Source: a bacterium (GTDB lineage: Bacteria; SAR324; XYD2-FULL-50-16). From it: a stretch of DNA of 64,000 nt. Positions 28,408 to 42,917 of this stretch are shown one piece after another. How positions within the stretch are numbered: position 1 is the first letter of the stretch; the number at the start of each line of letters is the position of its first letter. The DNA is taken from assembly GCA_024275165.1 (NCBI GenBank), contig JAJRZQ010000038.1:1-64000 (forward strand). Reading direction: 5' to 3'. Below the pieces are notes generated by a model. It made no database searches. It saw only the letters and a program-made list of their open reading frames with translations, and was not told where the DNA came from. Made by a program: the position numbers and the translations under genes.

Positions 28408-29607
28408 ATGGAAAGCATTCCCCCCAAGGCAGATGGGCAGATGAGCTTGATCGCGCACCTTGACGAGCTGCGTGTGCGTTTGATGCGCTATTTGGTGGTG
28501 CTTTTTATTCTTCTTTTAGGGTGCTATGCCTTTCGCAAGGATATTTTAAATGTCCTGCGCGCGCCGGTGGAGGTACCCTTGCAAAAATACTCCGCCCAGC
28601 AACCCCTTGAAGGGGAAGGTTCCGCGACAAGCCCCGGTTTAGACCTCTCCGCCTTGGAATGTTCTTGTCTCCCCGCTTGGGAAAACAACCAATTGACCCC
28701 CGCGGTGAGCGCGGAGGCGCCGACCGAGGATGTCTCCCCTCCCCTTCCCCTAGCCGAGGGGGTCGCCAGCGGTCAAACAACTCAACCTAAGTCCGAGCTG
28801 GCTTGGTATGAGGGCCCCTTGCAGGAGATGAAAACCAGCTTTCGCGATTTTAAGGCCCTGTACCTATCAATAACAGGGCGCGAAGAAGAGGCGGCCAACA
28901 TGCTCAGTCCCAAAGAGGAGCTTGCCCCTCCTACGATGGTCGGGGCAGACCGGCAAGGAATACTCAGGTTAGATTGCGCCTGCCGCCCCAAAAAAGGCAA
29001 AACCGCTCATATGGTTTATATTGGCTTGCCGGAACTCTTTTTTGCCCAAATGAAAACAGCGATCTATTCGGCAATCTTTTTTTCCTTTCCCTTTTTGTTG
29101 ATTGAGCTTTGGGGCTTTGTGGGCCCGGCGCTGTACCGTGGTGAAAAGGTCGTGTTTTGGGCTTTCGCGATTTTCAGCTACCTCTTTTTTACCCTGGGCA
29201 GTCTCTTTGGCTATTTTGTGGTTTTTCCCTTTGGTTTCGACTTTTTTCTAAGCTTGAGCCAGCCTGGTGAAATTATGCCTAGTTTATCGGTAGGGGGATA
29301 TCTCGATTTCACCCTAAAGCTGTTTTTGGCCTTTGGGATGATCTTTGAACTGCCCTTAGTGGTTTTTATTCTCAGTCGCTTAGGGATTGTGACCCCGGAA
29401 TTGATGCTCAAGCAAATGCGCCTGGCCATGGTGACGATCTTAATCGCCAGCGCCGTGCTGACCCCCCCGGACCCCTTTACCATGTTGCTCATGGCGGCCC
29501 CCTTAACCCTGCTGTATTTGATCAGCATTGTCGTAAGCTTCCTAGCCGTGAATCGAAAAAAAGCCGCCTTGAGGGCGCAGGGTCTAAACCCTGAAGAATT
29601 CGGCTAG
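28408..29607 (+). CDS. tatC: TatC with a large periplasmic insertion
   Basis: Core receptor subunit of the twin-arginine translocase, which exports folded proteins. TatC is normally near 250 residues; this one has 399. The first segment (HLDELRVRLMRYLVVLFIL) and residues 208 onward (LPELFFAQMKTAIYSAIFFS, LWGFVGPALYRGEK, and the later membrane spans) are canonical. Residues about 61-199, in the first periplasmic loop, are an extra Pro/Glu-rich domain. It has LECSCLP (Cys 85 and 87) at one end and LDCACRP (Cys 190 and 192) at the other. Ribosome site GGAG before ATG. No tatA or tatB is nearby. Confidence 0.93.
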   Translation: MESIPPKADGQMSLIAHLDELRVRLMRYLVVLFILLLGCYAFRKDILNVLRAPVEVPLQKYSAQQPLEGEGSATSPGLDLSALECSCLPAWENNQLTPAVSAEAPTEDVSPPLPLAEGVASGQTTQPKSELAWYEGPLQEMKTSFRDFKALYLSITGREEEAANMLSPKEELAPPTMVGADRQGILRLDCACRPKKGKTAHMVYIGLPELFFAQMKTAIYSAIFFSFPFLLIELWGFVGPALYRGEKVVFWAFAIFSYLFFTLGSLFGYFVVFPFGFDFFLSLSQPGEIMPSLSVGGYLDFTLKLFLAFGMIFELPLVVFILSRLGIVTPELMLKQMRLAMVTILIASAVLTPPDPFTMLLMAAPLTLLYLISIVVSFLAVNRKKAALRAQGLNPEEFG

Positions 29608-37715: not shown

Positions 37716-37951
37716 TGCAACATAGCCTTTTCAAGGAGGCAAGAGCTAAGATGGGTCAGGTTGTTTTTTCCCCTTAGCAAAGAAGGGCAATTATGGTAAT
37801 AATGAATAAGCCCATCCCAAGGTGTTTTTAGTTGTTTGGGCCGGGCAAAAAGAGCAATCAAGGCACAGGGTCGCTTGATTTTAGCAGGCAGTTTGGAGCC
37901 CTGAATACTCAGAGGTGGTTGCGCGTCAATCTAAATCCCCGCAAAGGAGCC

Positions 37952-40879
37952 ATGGATAAGCTTACCCACAGTCCTCGCGTTGAAAAAGAGATTCGTGAGT
38001 TAGGTTTGCGGCTCTTTTCCAGCATGCGGGGGAAGAGTCCAAGCCTTTTTGATTCAAGGTTTTGGCAGGGAAAGCTGATGGAAGTTGCCTTAAAAGACCC
38101 AAGCTTTAAAGTCGATTTATTCCGTTTTATTGATGTTTTCCCCACCTTGCGCGATCCCCAAGAGATTTCGAGTCATCTCGCGGAGTACTTGCTGAAAAAA
38201 GATCGCAGGCTACCCCGCCTTTTTGGGATGGCCTTAAAGGCGGCTCGTTTTAAGCTCACTGCCCCCTTGGCGGCAAAGAGCATCCAGGCGAATATGACTC
38301 GCTTGGCTCAGGGTTTTATTTTAGGTGAAACCCCTGCCGAGGCCTTGGGTGCCTTAAAAAAGATGGACGCCAAAGGAGTGGGGTTTAGCGTTGATCTTTT
38401 AGGGGAGGCGGTTTTTAGTGAAGATGAGGCGGCAAGCTATCGCGCCCGGTACCTTGAGCTGGTTGACTCACTCAGGGGGCAGCTTTTGACCTGGCCGGAA
38501 AACCCCCGTTTAGAGCAAAGCCCGCAGGGGCGGGGCAACCTCTCGCTCAAGGTTTCCGCCTTTGCGCCTCATTTGGACGCCGCCGACTTAAAAGGCAGCG
38601 TCAAACGCCTTTACGCCGCGCTTTTGCCGGTATTGCTTCAGGCGAAAGAGGGGGGGCTTTTTGTGAATCTTGATTTAGAGCAATGGAGCCTGCACACGAT
38701 CACCTATGCGCTTTTTAAAGAAATCCTATTGAGCGCTGAGTTCCGCTCTTACCCCAAGCTCGGCATTGTAGTGCAGGCTTATCACCACAGCGCGCCAGAG
38801 GATGTGAGGCAATTGCTCGCCTGGGCGGAGCAACGAGGTTGCCCCCTTTCGGTGCGGTTGGTCAAGGGGGCTTACTGGGATTTTGAGGTTCTCAACGCCG
38901 GTTTGAGGGGCTACCCTTTGCCTCTATGGACCCAAAAAGGGGAGAGCGATTGCCGGTTTGAAGCTTTATCCCTAGAGTTGTTGAGGCACCATCAGATATT
39001 GCGTCCGGCCTTTGCCAGCCACAACCTGCGTAGCCTGGCCCATTTGCTCACCCATGCCCGCATCGCGGGCCTCAAGCCCGGGGATTACGAGATTCAGCTT
39101 TTAACCGGTATGGCCGAACCCCTGCGAGAGGCTTTGCTGCAAGAAGGGGAGTTGATTCGTCTTTATTGCCCTGTTGGGGGGCTTGTTCCCGGGTTGAGCT
39201 ATTTGGTGCGTCGGCTTTTGGAAAACACCTCCAGCCAAGGTTTCATCAGCCAAAGCCTGCAAAAGGAAATAGAGCCCGAATTGTTGTTCTGCCCGCCGGA
39301 GGTGAACTCGGCCCCTTCCCCTAGTCCAGGGGAATGGAAAAACTGCCCGGAATTGGATTTTACGGATCCTGCCATTTGCGAAGGCTTTGCCCAAGCGGTA
39401 GGACAGGTAAAAAGCAGCTTGCCCATTTTAGTGGGGGCAGCCAACAGAAAGGAACGCTTTACTCGCCTCTCCCCCAACGACCCGAAGCTGATCGTGACCC
39501 AAGCCTATTTAGCCGGTGAGCAGGAGGTCATTGAGGCGGTTCAAAGGGCGGCGCAAGCTTTTCCCTCTTGGCGGGATACCCCCTTAGAAGCTCGTGTCCA
39601 AGCCTTGGAACGCTTAGCCGATCTTTTGGAAAAAGACCGTTTTGCCTTAGCGGCCTTGCAATGTTTTGAGGTGGCCAAGCCTTGGCGAGAGGCGGATGGA
39701 GATGTGGCCGAAGCCATTGATTTTTGCCGCTATTACGCTCAGGCGGCCCGAACGGAATTGGCCCCGCGTGGGTTGGGGGATTTAGCGGGGGAAGAAAACC
39801 AACAAGAATTCATCGGCCGCGGCCCCGCGGCGATCATTGCCCCTTGGAACTTCCCCCTCGCTATTTTAACGGGGATGGCCACCGCTGCCTTGGTCGCGGG
39901 CAATCCGGTCTTGCTGAAACCGAGTCGCAACAGCTTGGCTCTCGGCCAAGTTTTGCATGGAAAAATGCTCGAAGCCGGTATTCCCCCTGAGGTGGCGCAG
40001 TTTTTACCTATTTCAGGCGAAAGAGCGGGCAAGCTTTTGGCGCGGGCAAAAGAAATTGCCCTCATCGCCTTTACGGGAAGCAAGGAGGTAGGGCTTTCTT
40101 TATGGCATCAGGCCGCCCAAACCGAGCCGGGGCAAAGAGAGATTAAAAAAATGATCTGCGAGTTGGGGGGGAAGAACGCGATTATCATTGATGAGGACGC
40201 CGACATGGACGAGGCGGTTTCTGGGGTGTTGCAAAGCGCCTGGAGCTACGGGGGGCAAAAATGCAGCGCTGCCGATCGGGTGATTGTCGTGGGCAGGGCA
40301 AAAGACCAGTTCATCCCTCGCCTGATCGCGGCGGCTCAATGCCTGCGCCTCGCCCCTGCTTGGGACCCCGCCTGCCAAGTCCCCCCAATGATTGATTCTT
40401 TCGCCCAAGAACGGCTCTTGCGACTCTTGGACAACCCGCCCCCGGGAGTCAAGGAGCTGTACCGGGGCCAAGCGCCGGAAAAAGGTTATTTTGTGCCTCC
40501 TGCCATTTTTCAAACCAAGGAACCCAACCACCCCTTCATGCAAGAAGAATTTTTTGGCCCCCTCTTGACGCTTTGTCCGGTAAAGGACTTTGATCAAGCC
40601 TTGGAGGTCGCTATGAATACGGGCTACGCCCTCACGGGGAGCCTCTATTCAAGGTTGCCCAGCCATCTTGAGCGGGCAAAAAAAGAATTTTTGGTGGGGA
40701 ACCTCTACCTCAACAAAGGCAGTACAGGGGCGAAGGTGGGGCGGCAACCCTTTGGGGGCCACGGCTTCAGTGGAGCAGGCACGCAGGCGGGAGGGCCGGG
40801 ATACCTCTCCCACTTTGTCTTTCCCCGCTTGTGGAGCGAAAATCTGATGCGCCGCGGCTTTTCCCCCAAATTACTTTAG
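37952..40879 (+). CDS. putA: Bifunctional proline dehydrogenase / P5C dehydrogenase
   Basis: Oxidises proline to glutamate in two steps. The ATG at 37952 gives 975 residues; the frame reaches a TTG at 37832, but homologous sequence begins at this ATG (EIRELGLRLFSSMRGKSPSL). The proline dehydrogenase half shows LSLKVSAF, LGIVVQAYHHSAPEDV, VRLVKGAYWDFE and FASHNLRSLAHLL. The aldehyde dehydrogenase half shows APWNFPLAILTGM, CELGGKNAIIIDEDADMDEA, YGGQKCSAADRVI with the catalytic Cys, and QPFGGHGFSGAGTQAGG. There is no N-terminal ribbon-helix-helix repressor domain. It leads a three-gene operon with ornithine cyclodeaminase and arginine dihydrolase genes. Confidence 0.95.
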   Translation: MDKLTHSPRVEKEIRELGLRLFSSMRGKSPSLFDSRFWQGKLMEVALKDPSFKVDLFRFIDVFPTLRDPQEISSHLAEYLLKKDRRLPRLFGMALKAARFKLTAPLAAKSIQANMTRLAQGFILGETPAEALGALKKMDAKGVGFSVDLLGEAVFSEDEAASYRARYLELVDSLRGQLLTWPENPRLEQSPQGRGNLSLKVSAFAPHLDAADLKGSVKRLYAALLPVLLQAKEGGLFVNLDLEQWSLHTITYALFKEILLSAEFRSYPKLGIVVQAYHHSAPEDVRQLLAWAEQRGCPLSVRLVKGAYWDFEVLNAGLRGYPLPLWTQKGESDCRFEALSLELLRHHQILRPAFASHNLRSLAHLLTHARIAGLKPGDYEIQLLTGMAEPLREALLQEGELIRLYCPVGGLVPGLSYLVRRLLENTSSQGFISQSLQKEIEPELLFCPPEVNSAPSPSPGEWKNCPELDFTDPAICEGFAQAVGQVKSSLPILVGAANRKERFTRLSPNDPKLIVTQAYLAGEQEVIEAVQRAAQAFPSWRDTPLEARVQALERLADLLEKDRFALAALQCFEVAKPWREADGDVAEAIDFCRYYAQAARTELAPRGLGDLAGEENQQEFIGRGPAAIIAPWNFPLAILTGMATAALVAGNPVLLKPSRNSLALGQVLHGKMLEAGIPPEVAQFLPISGERAGKLLARAKEIALIAFTGSKEVGLSLWHQAAQTEPGQREIKKMICELGGKNAIIIDEDADMDEAVSGVLQSAWSYGGQKCSAADRVIVVGRAKDQFIPRLIAAAQCLRLAPAWDPACQVPPMIDSFAQERLLRLLDNPPPGVKELYRGQAPEKGYFVPPAIFQTKEPNHPFMQEEFFGPLLTLCPVKDFDQALEVAMNTGYALTGSLYSRLPSHLERAKKEFLVGNLYLNKGSTGAKVGRQPFGGHGFSGAGTQAGGPGYLSHFVFPRLWSENLMRRGFSPKLL

Positions 40880-40887
40880 GGGGCTTG

Positions 40888-42117
40888 ATGGCGAGCCAAA
40901 CCCTCATGCTGGAAGGTCACCTCTTAGACAGTCATCTTTTGTCCAAGGTCTTGGACTTGATCGAGGCCCAGGGCGGGTGCGCGAAGTTGGAACGAATCGA
41001 GTTGGGCATGCGCCGCCAAGACTTAAGCCGCGCTTGGGTCGAGGTAACCGCCTCTCGACAAAGCGCCCTTGATGGCTTGCTCGCAAACTTGCGGCCCCTA
41101 GGTTGCGAAGCGGTGGAAGAGACGAAAAAAGGCGATTTGGTCTTAGCGCCCGCTCCCCTCGCGGGGTGCTTTCCCGCAAACTTTTACGCTACCAGCAACC
41201 GCCTTACGGAGGTCTATATTCAAGGTCGTTGGCTCGCGGTTACCCCTTCGGGCATGGACTGCGCGATTCGGGTCAGCTTGAGGGATTTAACGGCGGAGAG
41301 CGTTAAGATGTGGCAGGCAAAAAAGGGGGATTTGATTGTGGTGGGGGGGCGAGGGGTTCGAGTTGCGCCCTCTGCGGCGCTGGAGCCTGGTTCTGGCGAA
41401 TTTGGTTTTATGGATTCATCGGTGAGCAGTGAAAAGCCCAAAGCCATTGCCATCCGCAGGCTTGCTCAAAGGATGAAAGAAATCCGCGAAAAAAATCAGG
41501 GTTCGATTGTTTGGGTCGCGGGCCCCGCCTTGGTGCATACCGGGGCGAGGGAAGAGGCGGCCTGGTTGATCCGTGAAGGTTGGATCCACCGCCTTTTGGC
41601 CGGGAATGCCCTGGCGGCCCATGATATTGAAGCGGAGCTTTACGGCAGCAGTCTCGGGGTTTTTTTGGCTTCCGGTAAAGCCCAACGGCATGGGCACCGC
41701 AATCATCTCTACGCGATCAACGAAATTCGCCGATTGGGAGGGATCAAAGCAGCGGTAGAGCAGGGGGTGATTCAATCGGGGATTTTTTTTGAGGCGATTC
41801 AAAAACCCATTCCCTTTGTGTTGGCGGGAAGCATTCGCGATGACGGCCCTTTACCCGAAGTGATTACCGATGCCCTTGAGGCCCAAAAGGCAATGCGTCA
41901 AGAGCTTCAAGGGGCCGCCTTGGTGATCATGGTCTCCACCTTGCTGCATTCGATTGCCGTGGGGAATCTTTTGCCCGAAGGGGTCGAAACCTGGGCCGTG
42001 GACATCAACCCCGCGGCGCTCACGAAATTAGCGGATCGAGGGACGCATCACGCTCAGGGTTTGGTGATGGACGCAAAGTCGTTTATGGTCGCCTTGCTCC
42101 AGGCGTTGCGGGAATGA
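40888..42117 (+). CDS. TIGR00300/LOR-SDH-type ornithine cyclodeaminase
   Basis: 409 residues from the ATG at 40888 (AGGGGG site five bases before); a GTG at 40831 lies inside putA and adds only unrelated residues. The protein matches the TIGR00300 family: LEGHLLDSHLLSKVLDLIEA, VTPSGMDCAIRVS, GGRGVRVAP, then AGPALVHTG, LLAGNALAAHDIEAELYGSSLG, and AGSIRDDGPLPEV. From memory, the archaeal member MMP1218 and the C-terminal half of cyanobacterial ArgZ/AgrE convert ornithine to proline and ammonia using bound NAD. The position between putA and an ArgZ-like gene strongly supports that role. Its stop overlaps the next start in ATGA. Confidence 0.85.
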   Translation: MASQTLMLEGHLLDSHLLSKVLDLIEAQGGCAKLERIELGMRRQDLSRAWVEVTASRQSALDGLLANLRPLGCEAVEETKKGDLVLAPAPLAGCFPANFYATSNRLTEVYIQGRWLAVTPSGMDCAIRVSLRDLTAESVKMWQAKKGDLIVVGGRGVRVAPSAALEPGSGEFGFMDSSVSSEKPKAIAIRRLAQRMKEIREKNQGSIVWVAGPALVHTGAREEAAWLIREGWIHRLLAGNALAAHDIEAELYGSSLGVFLASGKAQRHGHRNHLYAINEIRRLGGIKAAVEQGVIQSGIFFEAIQKPIPFVLAGSIRDDGPLPEVITDALEAQKAMRQELQGAALVIMVSTLLHSIAVGNLLPEGVETWAVDINPAALTKLADRGTHHAQGLVMDAKSFMVALLQALRE

Positions 42118-42917
42118 GGCGGCTCTTGTTGTGCGCGCCTCGTTTTTATGGGGTGGAATACGAAATCAATCCCTGGATGAAGCTCAGCCGTCGGCCCGAC
42201 CTCGCTTGCGCCTTGAGGCAGTGGGAGGCCTTGCGGCAAGCCTTAACCCGATTAGGCGCAACCATCGAACTGCTGGAGCCGCAACAAGGTTTGCCCGATT
42301 TGGTTTTTACCGCGAATGGGGCTTTAGTGAGGGGGGAGGAAGCGATTCTCAGCCGCTTTCGGCATTTAGAGCGGCAGGGGGAAGAGCCCCTGTTTCGCCG
42401 TTGGTTTGCGGCAAAAGGGTTTCGGCTATTAACCCTGCCTCAAGATATCGCCTTTGAAGGGGAGGGGGACGCCTTGTTTTGGGGAGGCGACCTCATCGCC
42501 GCTTATGGATTTCGTTCCCACATCCGTTCGCACCGCCTGATCAGCGAGATTTGGTCGATTCCCGTGGTTTCCCTGGCTTTGGTCGATCAGCGGTTTTATC
42601 ATCTGGATACCTGCTTTTGCCCCTTGGATGAACACAGAGCCCTGTACTACCCTCCCGCCTTTGACGCCTATTCCCTGGCCGCTTTGCGGGGATTGGGCAA
42701 AGAGTTGATTGCCCTGGATGAGGCCGATGCCGTAGCTTTTGCCTGCAACGCCGTGGTCTTGGGTAAAGATGTGTTGATGCAGCCTTGTTCGCGGAGGTTG
42801 GAGGAAAAATTACGGCAAAGGGGGTTTCGTCTTCATTTGCTGCCGCTGGGGGAATATCTGAAAGCAGGAGGGAGCGCTAAGTGTTTAGGCCTCTATTTAG
42901 ATAACCCCGTTTTTTAA
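42114..42917 (+). CDS. argZ: Arginine dihydrolase (ArgZ-type amidinotransferase fold)
   Basis: 267 residues of the amidinotransferase/DDAH fold. Active-site candidates are INPWM with Asn 19, FTANGA with Asn 68, FYHLDT with His 163 and GGSAKC with Cys 257. As I recall, cyanobacterial ArgZ uses N22, N71, H168 and C264, and the spacing here agrees to within a few residues. The Asn in the FTAN motif is what separates dihydrolases from deiminases. The predicted reaction is arginine plus two waters to ornithine, CO2 and two ammonia. The gene overlaps the ornithine cyclodeaminase gene by 4 bp. A dimethylarginine hydrolase is the main alternative. Confidence 0.82.
   Translation: MRRLLLCAPRFYGVEYEINPWMKLSRRPDLACALRQWEALRQALTRLGATIELLEPQQGLPDLVFTANGALVRGEEAILSRFRHLERQGEEPLFRRWFAAKGFRLLTLPQDIAFEGEGDALFWGGDLIAAYGFRSHIRSHRLISEIWSIPVVSLALVDQRFYHLDTCFCPLDEHRALYYPPAFDAYSLAALRGLGKELIALDEADAVAFACNAVVLGKDVLMQPCSRRLEEKLRQRGFRLHLLPLGEYLKAGGSAKCLGLYLDNPVF

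Follow-up and report, generated by a model that had tools for sequence, protein, structure and literature searches.

In cyanobacteria, arginine is converted to proline by AgrE and then to glutamate by PutA, with the release of three NH4+ (PMC8262935). The first of these enzymes—known as ArgZ in Synechocystis (Sll1336) and AgrE in Anabaena (Alr4995)—is a single protein that joins an arginine dihydrolase (ADH) to an ornithine cyclodeaminase (OCD), and in sequence groupings such two-domain enzymes fall together with a larger set of proteins that are uncharacterised (PMC11659421). Each half also has described stand-alone counterparts: an archaeal OCD of solved structure (3C2Q) and, for the ADH, guanidino hydrolases of Actinobacteria that are annotated as 'dimethylargininase' (NF045659, Rv2323c type). 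Here we describe a locus from a SAR324 bacterium (XYD2-FULL-50-16; assembly GCA_024275165.1) in which both halves are predicted to be encoded by separate genes beside putA. The window, meaning the whole stretch of DNA analysed, comprises 64,000 nucleotides of contig JAJRZQ010000038.1, and the features of interest within it are as follows.

37952..40879, + strand: putA, 975 aa, with PutA_N, proline dehydrogenase and glutamate-semialdehyde dehydrogenase domains; predicted to convert proline to glutamate
40880..40887, + strand: spacer of 8 bp between putA and the OCD gene, read from the sequence
40888..42117, + strand: TIGR00300-type OCD, 409 aa, with a LOR/SDH N-domain and an ArgZ-like C-terminal Rossmann domain; predicted to convert ornithine to proline and NH3
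42114..42117, + strand: ATGA overlap of the OCD stop and the ADH start, from the ORF coordinates, with a matching pair at locus L002
42114..42917, + strand: stand-alone ArgZ-type ADH, 267 aa; predicted to convert arginine to ornithine, 2 NH3 and CO2

All three reading frames lie on the same strand at the positions, in the order and with the spacing (8 bp, then ATGA) given in a preliminary description of this DNA. The ATG taken as the start of putA (37952) is preceded by AAAGGAG, and an in-frame TTG at 37832 is open too, so that this start is a choice. putA ends at 40879 and the OCD gene opens 8 bp on with the ATG at 40888; the OCD stop codon (TGA, 42115-42117) and the ADH start (ATG, 42114) share one ATGA, an overlap that suggests translational coupling of the two genes. 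Divergent or convergent neighbours flank the three-gene unit—a TPR/YfiO-like gene upstream and a hybrid histidine kinase downstream. Scanning for consensus promoters returned one weak site upstream, fewer than in shuffled sequences, and we claim no promoter.

The identity of the last gene carries most of the interpretation. Its product is ~51% identical to Synechocystis ArgZ, and in sequence searches it matched the ArgZ/AgrE crystal structures at E ~1e-80, compared with 1e-8 or worse for DDAH. An AF2 model (pLDDT 96) superimposed on ArgZ (6JV1/6JUZ/6JV0) with a TM of 0.96 and an rmsd of 1.4 Å, and on DDAH with ~0.8 TM and roughly 3 Å; by such comparison of models, ArgZ is a closer match in fold than either DDAH or ADI. 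Four residues that had been proposed as the counterparts of residues in ArgZ, Asn19, Asn68, His163 and Cys257, align exactly with N22, N71, H168 and C264, and the numbering of two of these can be checked against the titles of 6JUZ (N71S) and 6JV1 (C264S). The second of the four positions, which Zhuang et al. reportedly identified in 2020 as the determinant of dihydrolase activity, is occupied by Asn in all of the split and fused relatives that we compared, whereas the true DDAH and DDAH-like sequences in the comparison have Asp. In a tree built against DDAH-type sequences, the window ADH was placed with ArgZ and other split ADHs, away from DDAH, on a long branch whose link to the separate-gene sequences has modest support (83/70). 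Against the curated NCBIfam model Arg_dihydro (NF052232), by comparison, the protein is a formal miss, scoring 298 bits where the cut-off is 450. All eight separate-gene relatives scanned, the Melainabacterial one included, also miss it (266-347 bits), and the one fused cyanobacterial protein scanned lies above it at 535 bits. The cut-off appears to delimit the cyanobacterial type, and we do not treat it as defining activity.

The two upstream genes could be assigned with similar methods. The putA product contains the domain set of PutA (Pfam Pro_dh, 2e-77; Aldedh, 3e-109; PutA_N, 3e-30), and its best NCBIfam PutA model is PRK11904, at 569 bits and under the cut-off of 747. The middle protein carries Saccharop_dh_N, ArgZ-like_C_1st and ArgZ-like_C_2nd domains and scores 449.2 bits against TIGR00300, above the curated cut-off of 410.8, which bears out its earlier assignment to this family. 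Its sequence matches include ArgZ, AgrE and an archaeal structure, 3C2Q, which we take to be MMP1218. Its AF2 model (pLDDT 85) has the fold shared by the C-terminal half of AgrE and 3C2Q (Foldseek: 3C2Q_A, rmsd 1.7 Å, TMt 0.92), the next and distant fold relative being NAD-dependent deoxyhypusine synthase. Like MMP1218, the window OCD is a stand-alone protein, and the two share their fold over 331 columns; the match spans residues 86-407 of the window OCD only, and so its N-terminal LOR/SDH domain lies outside the match to 3C2Q. The preliminary description had named two outcomes that would speak against its reading, a grouping of the ADH with DDAH or deiminases and a middle protein without the NAD-binding and ornithine residues of MMP1218, and we encountered neither.

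Taken with the gene order, these assignments make it highly probable that we are dealing with an arginine-catabolic operon of three genes, in which ADH, OCD and PutA would act in turn to convert arginine to glutamate. The likely route, from arginine through ornithine and proline to glutamate with three ammonia released, agrees with the enzyme identities and pathway first proposed for this locus, and finds support in the conserved residues, the tree, the fold and the order of the genes. On the proposed mechanism, the ADH would hydrolyse arginine twice at the guanidinium carbon, yielding ornithine, CO2 and two ammonia, with the use of Cys257, His163 and the dihydrolase-specific Asn68; the OCD would cyclise ornithine to proline and free the third ammonia; and PutA would then oxidise proline to glutamate. 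The genes may be co-transcribed, and ADH and OCD may form a complex. A search of the genome for arginase-family genes found none. The window pair thus shares with ArgZ/AgrE both catalytic halves, the catalytic residues, the fold, the expected net reaction and PutA as the next step, but is encoded by two genes in the order OCD-ADH rather than as one ADH-OCD protein, has putA in the same predicted operon, and has an ADH that falls under the Arg_dihydro cut-off. Such a two-protein system is well suited to asking whether ADH and OCD must be joined for channelling.

How ordinary this arrangement is became clear from a genome scan, which returned at least 578 relatives and led us to reject the idea of rarity outside cyanobacteria. 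Among the best 80 relatives, which were examined for arrangement, 34 are fused ADH-OCD proteins, all of them cyanobacterial and forming a single clade (100/100). Another 34, from several other phyla, have an OCD gene directly upstream on the same strand, always OCD then ADH, although in one of these (L024) the OCD is represented by its N-terminal domain alone; the rest have an OCD further away (2) or no OCD on the contig (10). Spacing was 30 bp or less in 26 of 35 measured pairs, a count that includes the family relative at L002. Separate pairs from Planctomycetota, Verrucomicrobiota, Nitrospirota, Chloroflexota and Armatimonadota share the genes, order, strand and tight spacing of the window pair, with ADHs that are 46-54% identical, but putA lies directly upstream in none of those examined. 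Within the window's own phylum, sampled by 52 genomes of one class, the pair was found in two—the window genome and that of a second genus in the same family (G001), where the genes overlap likewise (OCD-ATGA-ADH, L002). Because of this second genus, and because of the 34 of the best 80 relatives with OCD directly upstream, the OCD-ADH arrangement is not a matter of chance.

The link to putA has a different distribution. Among the genomes examined, putA is directly upstream of the pair in the window genome only, and a universal link was accordingly rejected; the direct attachment looks local, with the proviso that the G001 contig begins just upstream of its OCD and cannot show whether putA is present or absent there. 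In Nitrospirota an aldehyde dehydrogenase gene precedes the pair, and on a myxococcotal contig (L026) the ADH gene sits beside a putA on the opposite strand, with no OCD on the contig. At the Gastranaerophilales locus mentioned above (L024:5735-6792), a free LOR/SDH N-domain of 78 aa is encoded 23 bp before a stand-alone ADH; this contig ends soon past the ADH gene, and the OCD core was not found on it.

The preliminary description had presented the locus as a split ArgZ/AgrE enzyme outside cyanobacteria, in reverse order. Literally this is correct, but as a novelty it does not stand: separate OCD-ADH genes are the general form, ordinary outside cyanobacteria, and the fusion belongs to one clade, such that the window offers a good annotation and not a new kind of system. 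A broad distribution of arginine dihydrolases outside cyanobacteria had reportedly been stated already by Zhuang et al. (2020). What the comparison brings out is that many other phyla carry the cyanobacterial AgrE route in the ordinary form of separate genes, and that the curated model for arginine dihydrolases misses the ADH there.

Two other accounts of the pair deserve consideration. Fusion of the same two domains in cyanobacteria might suggest that the separate genes arose by fission of a cyanobacterial-type fused gene, but we consider this very improbable, and tree and gene order disfavour it: since the fused form is one clade and the separate form is widespread over many phyla with its genes the other way round (OCD before ADH), the simpler reading is that fusion is derived, although the root of the tree is not fixed. 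It is at least as improbable that the 42114 protein is a DDAH or an arginine deiminase that yields citrulline and adjoins the OCD gene incidentally. DDAH_eukar is indeed its sole Pfam match, and with the NCBIfam model DdahMtb it attains 276 bits, near the cut-off of 300. All the same, it remains under this and the other DDAH/dimethylargininase cut-offs (52 vs 340 and 30 vs 450 bits) and has Asn68 where DDAH has Asp; members of the DdahMtb family themselves have Asn as ArgZ does, and the M. ulcerans gene lies before rocD. With its tree position and fold closer to ArgZ, and with a gene for an ornithine-consuming enzyme adjoining it in many phyla, we rejected a DDAH or deiminase identity on the grounds of residues, tree and fold.

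The most interesting part of this analysis is a lead on the cofactor of the OCD, which could be NAD+, a nickel-pincer nucleotide (NPN) or both. The preliminary description had taken it to be NAD, as for MMP1218 and AgrE. NCBIfam (2026) names TIGR00300 as NPN-dependent, a naming behind which our literature search found no paper. The window genome encodes larB and larE side by side and a LarC that is split over two unlinked genes, LarC1 and LarC2 (profile positions 1-235 and 235-374), and a search of the genome found no LarA. Because proteins of NPN biosynthesis are encoded with no LarA to receive the cofactor, NPN use by the window OCD is plausible. Approximately 15% of genomes, many cyanobacteria among them, have larB/E/C without larA, the acceptor being unidentified as of 2024 (PMC11796402). 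The two LarC genes of the window genome (L107 and L108; G000:C47:91852-92556 and 190567-190989) lie ~98 kb apart and are neither one gene nor a frameshifted pair, and short LarC1 frames are also carried by G001, G002 and G004.

We then tallied LarC in the genomes behind individual ADH loci, a count to be read with no matched background rate for larC. LarC was over the cut-off in 29 of 35 non-verrucomicrobial genomes tested and in none of the 17 verrucomicrobial ones (L018, L019, L025, L033, L034, L036, L038, L039, L046, L050, L053, L061, L062, L065, L072, L074 and L091). Three histidines that are otherwise invariant (H217, H245 and H273 in window OCD numbering) show a parallel pattern: at least one is lost in each of the 15 verrucomicrobial OCDs that could be aligned, and D383 is changed in all 15, whereas the window OCD and all LarC-positive OCDs compared keep all four residues. 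The verrucomicrobial sequences form one clade (100/100), and this is therefore essentially one evolutionary event rather than many independent proofs. Speaking against a simple rule are two LarC-negative genomes outside Verrucomicrobiota (L017, L063), in which the OCD residues are retained, possibly because their assemblies are incomplete, and two relatives, G002 and G004, taken up below.

On these observations, we see an even chance that the OCD is a non-LarA acceptor of NPN, with H217, H245 and H273 in the cofactor site, and that Verrucomicrobiota kept the enzyme after losing both the cofactor pathway and the residues. If true, this would explain the occurrence of larB/E/C without larA in the window genome and in many cyanobacteria. 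That the OCD uses NAD+ only, and that the lar genes serve another protein, is a real possibility which we hold somewhat below that. A crystal structure of AgrE contains NAD+ and ornithine (title of 6LRG), the OCD fold resembles that of an NAD-dependent enzyme, deoxyhypusine synthase, and the Verrucomicrobiota tested, which have this OCD, have no larC. In addition, two near-complete genomes of the window's family (G002 and G004) have LarC1 without LarA and without a TIGR00300 match, which implies that LarC can serve something else, either another NPN acceptor or a different role for LarC1. Set against NAD+ as the sole cofactor are the NPN-dependent label of TIGR00300, the frequency of LarC in non-verrucomicrobial ADH genomes and the loss of invariant histidines from the verrucomicrobial OCDs, whose genomes lack larC. 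The two-protein system of the window likewise lends itself to asking whether NPN is used by enzymes of the TIGR00300 family, its acceptor in larA-less genomes having had no name in 2024 (PMC11796402).

Finally, the comparison touches the actinobacterial 'dimethylargininases' (NF045659). Like the window ADH, to which they are 41-46% identical, these are stand-alone guanidino hydrolases with the ArgZ-type Asn; they form a separate clade, and in M. ulcerans the partner is rocD (ornithine aminotransferase) rather than an OCD. The M. ulcerans plasmid gene (L098:3911-6027), which overlaps rocD, and those at L099, L100 and L102 encode the ArgZ-type Asn at both positions. Judged from such residues and gene neighbours, the NF045659-type proteins may be arginine dihydrolases. 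M. tuberculosis obtains ornithine from arginine without arginase and needs Rv2323c for growth on arginine (PMC4569260), which the dihydrolase reading would fit.

Elsewhere in the window, a gene for a TatC homologue (28408-29607, + strand, 399 aa) appears to be interrupted, behind its first transmembrane helix, by an insert of ~150 residues, and this insert carries the CxC-type motifs ECSCLP and DCACRP.
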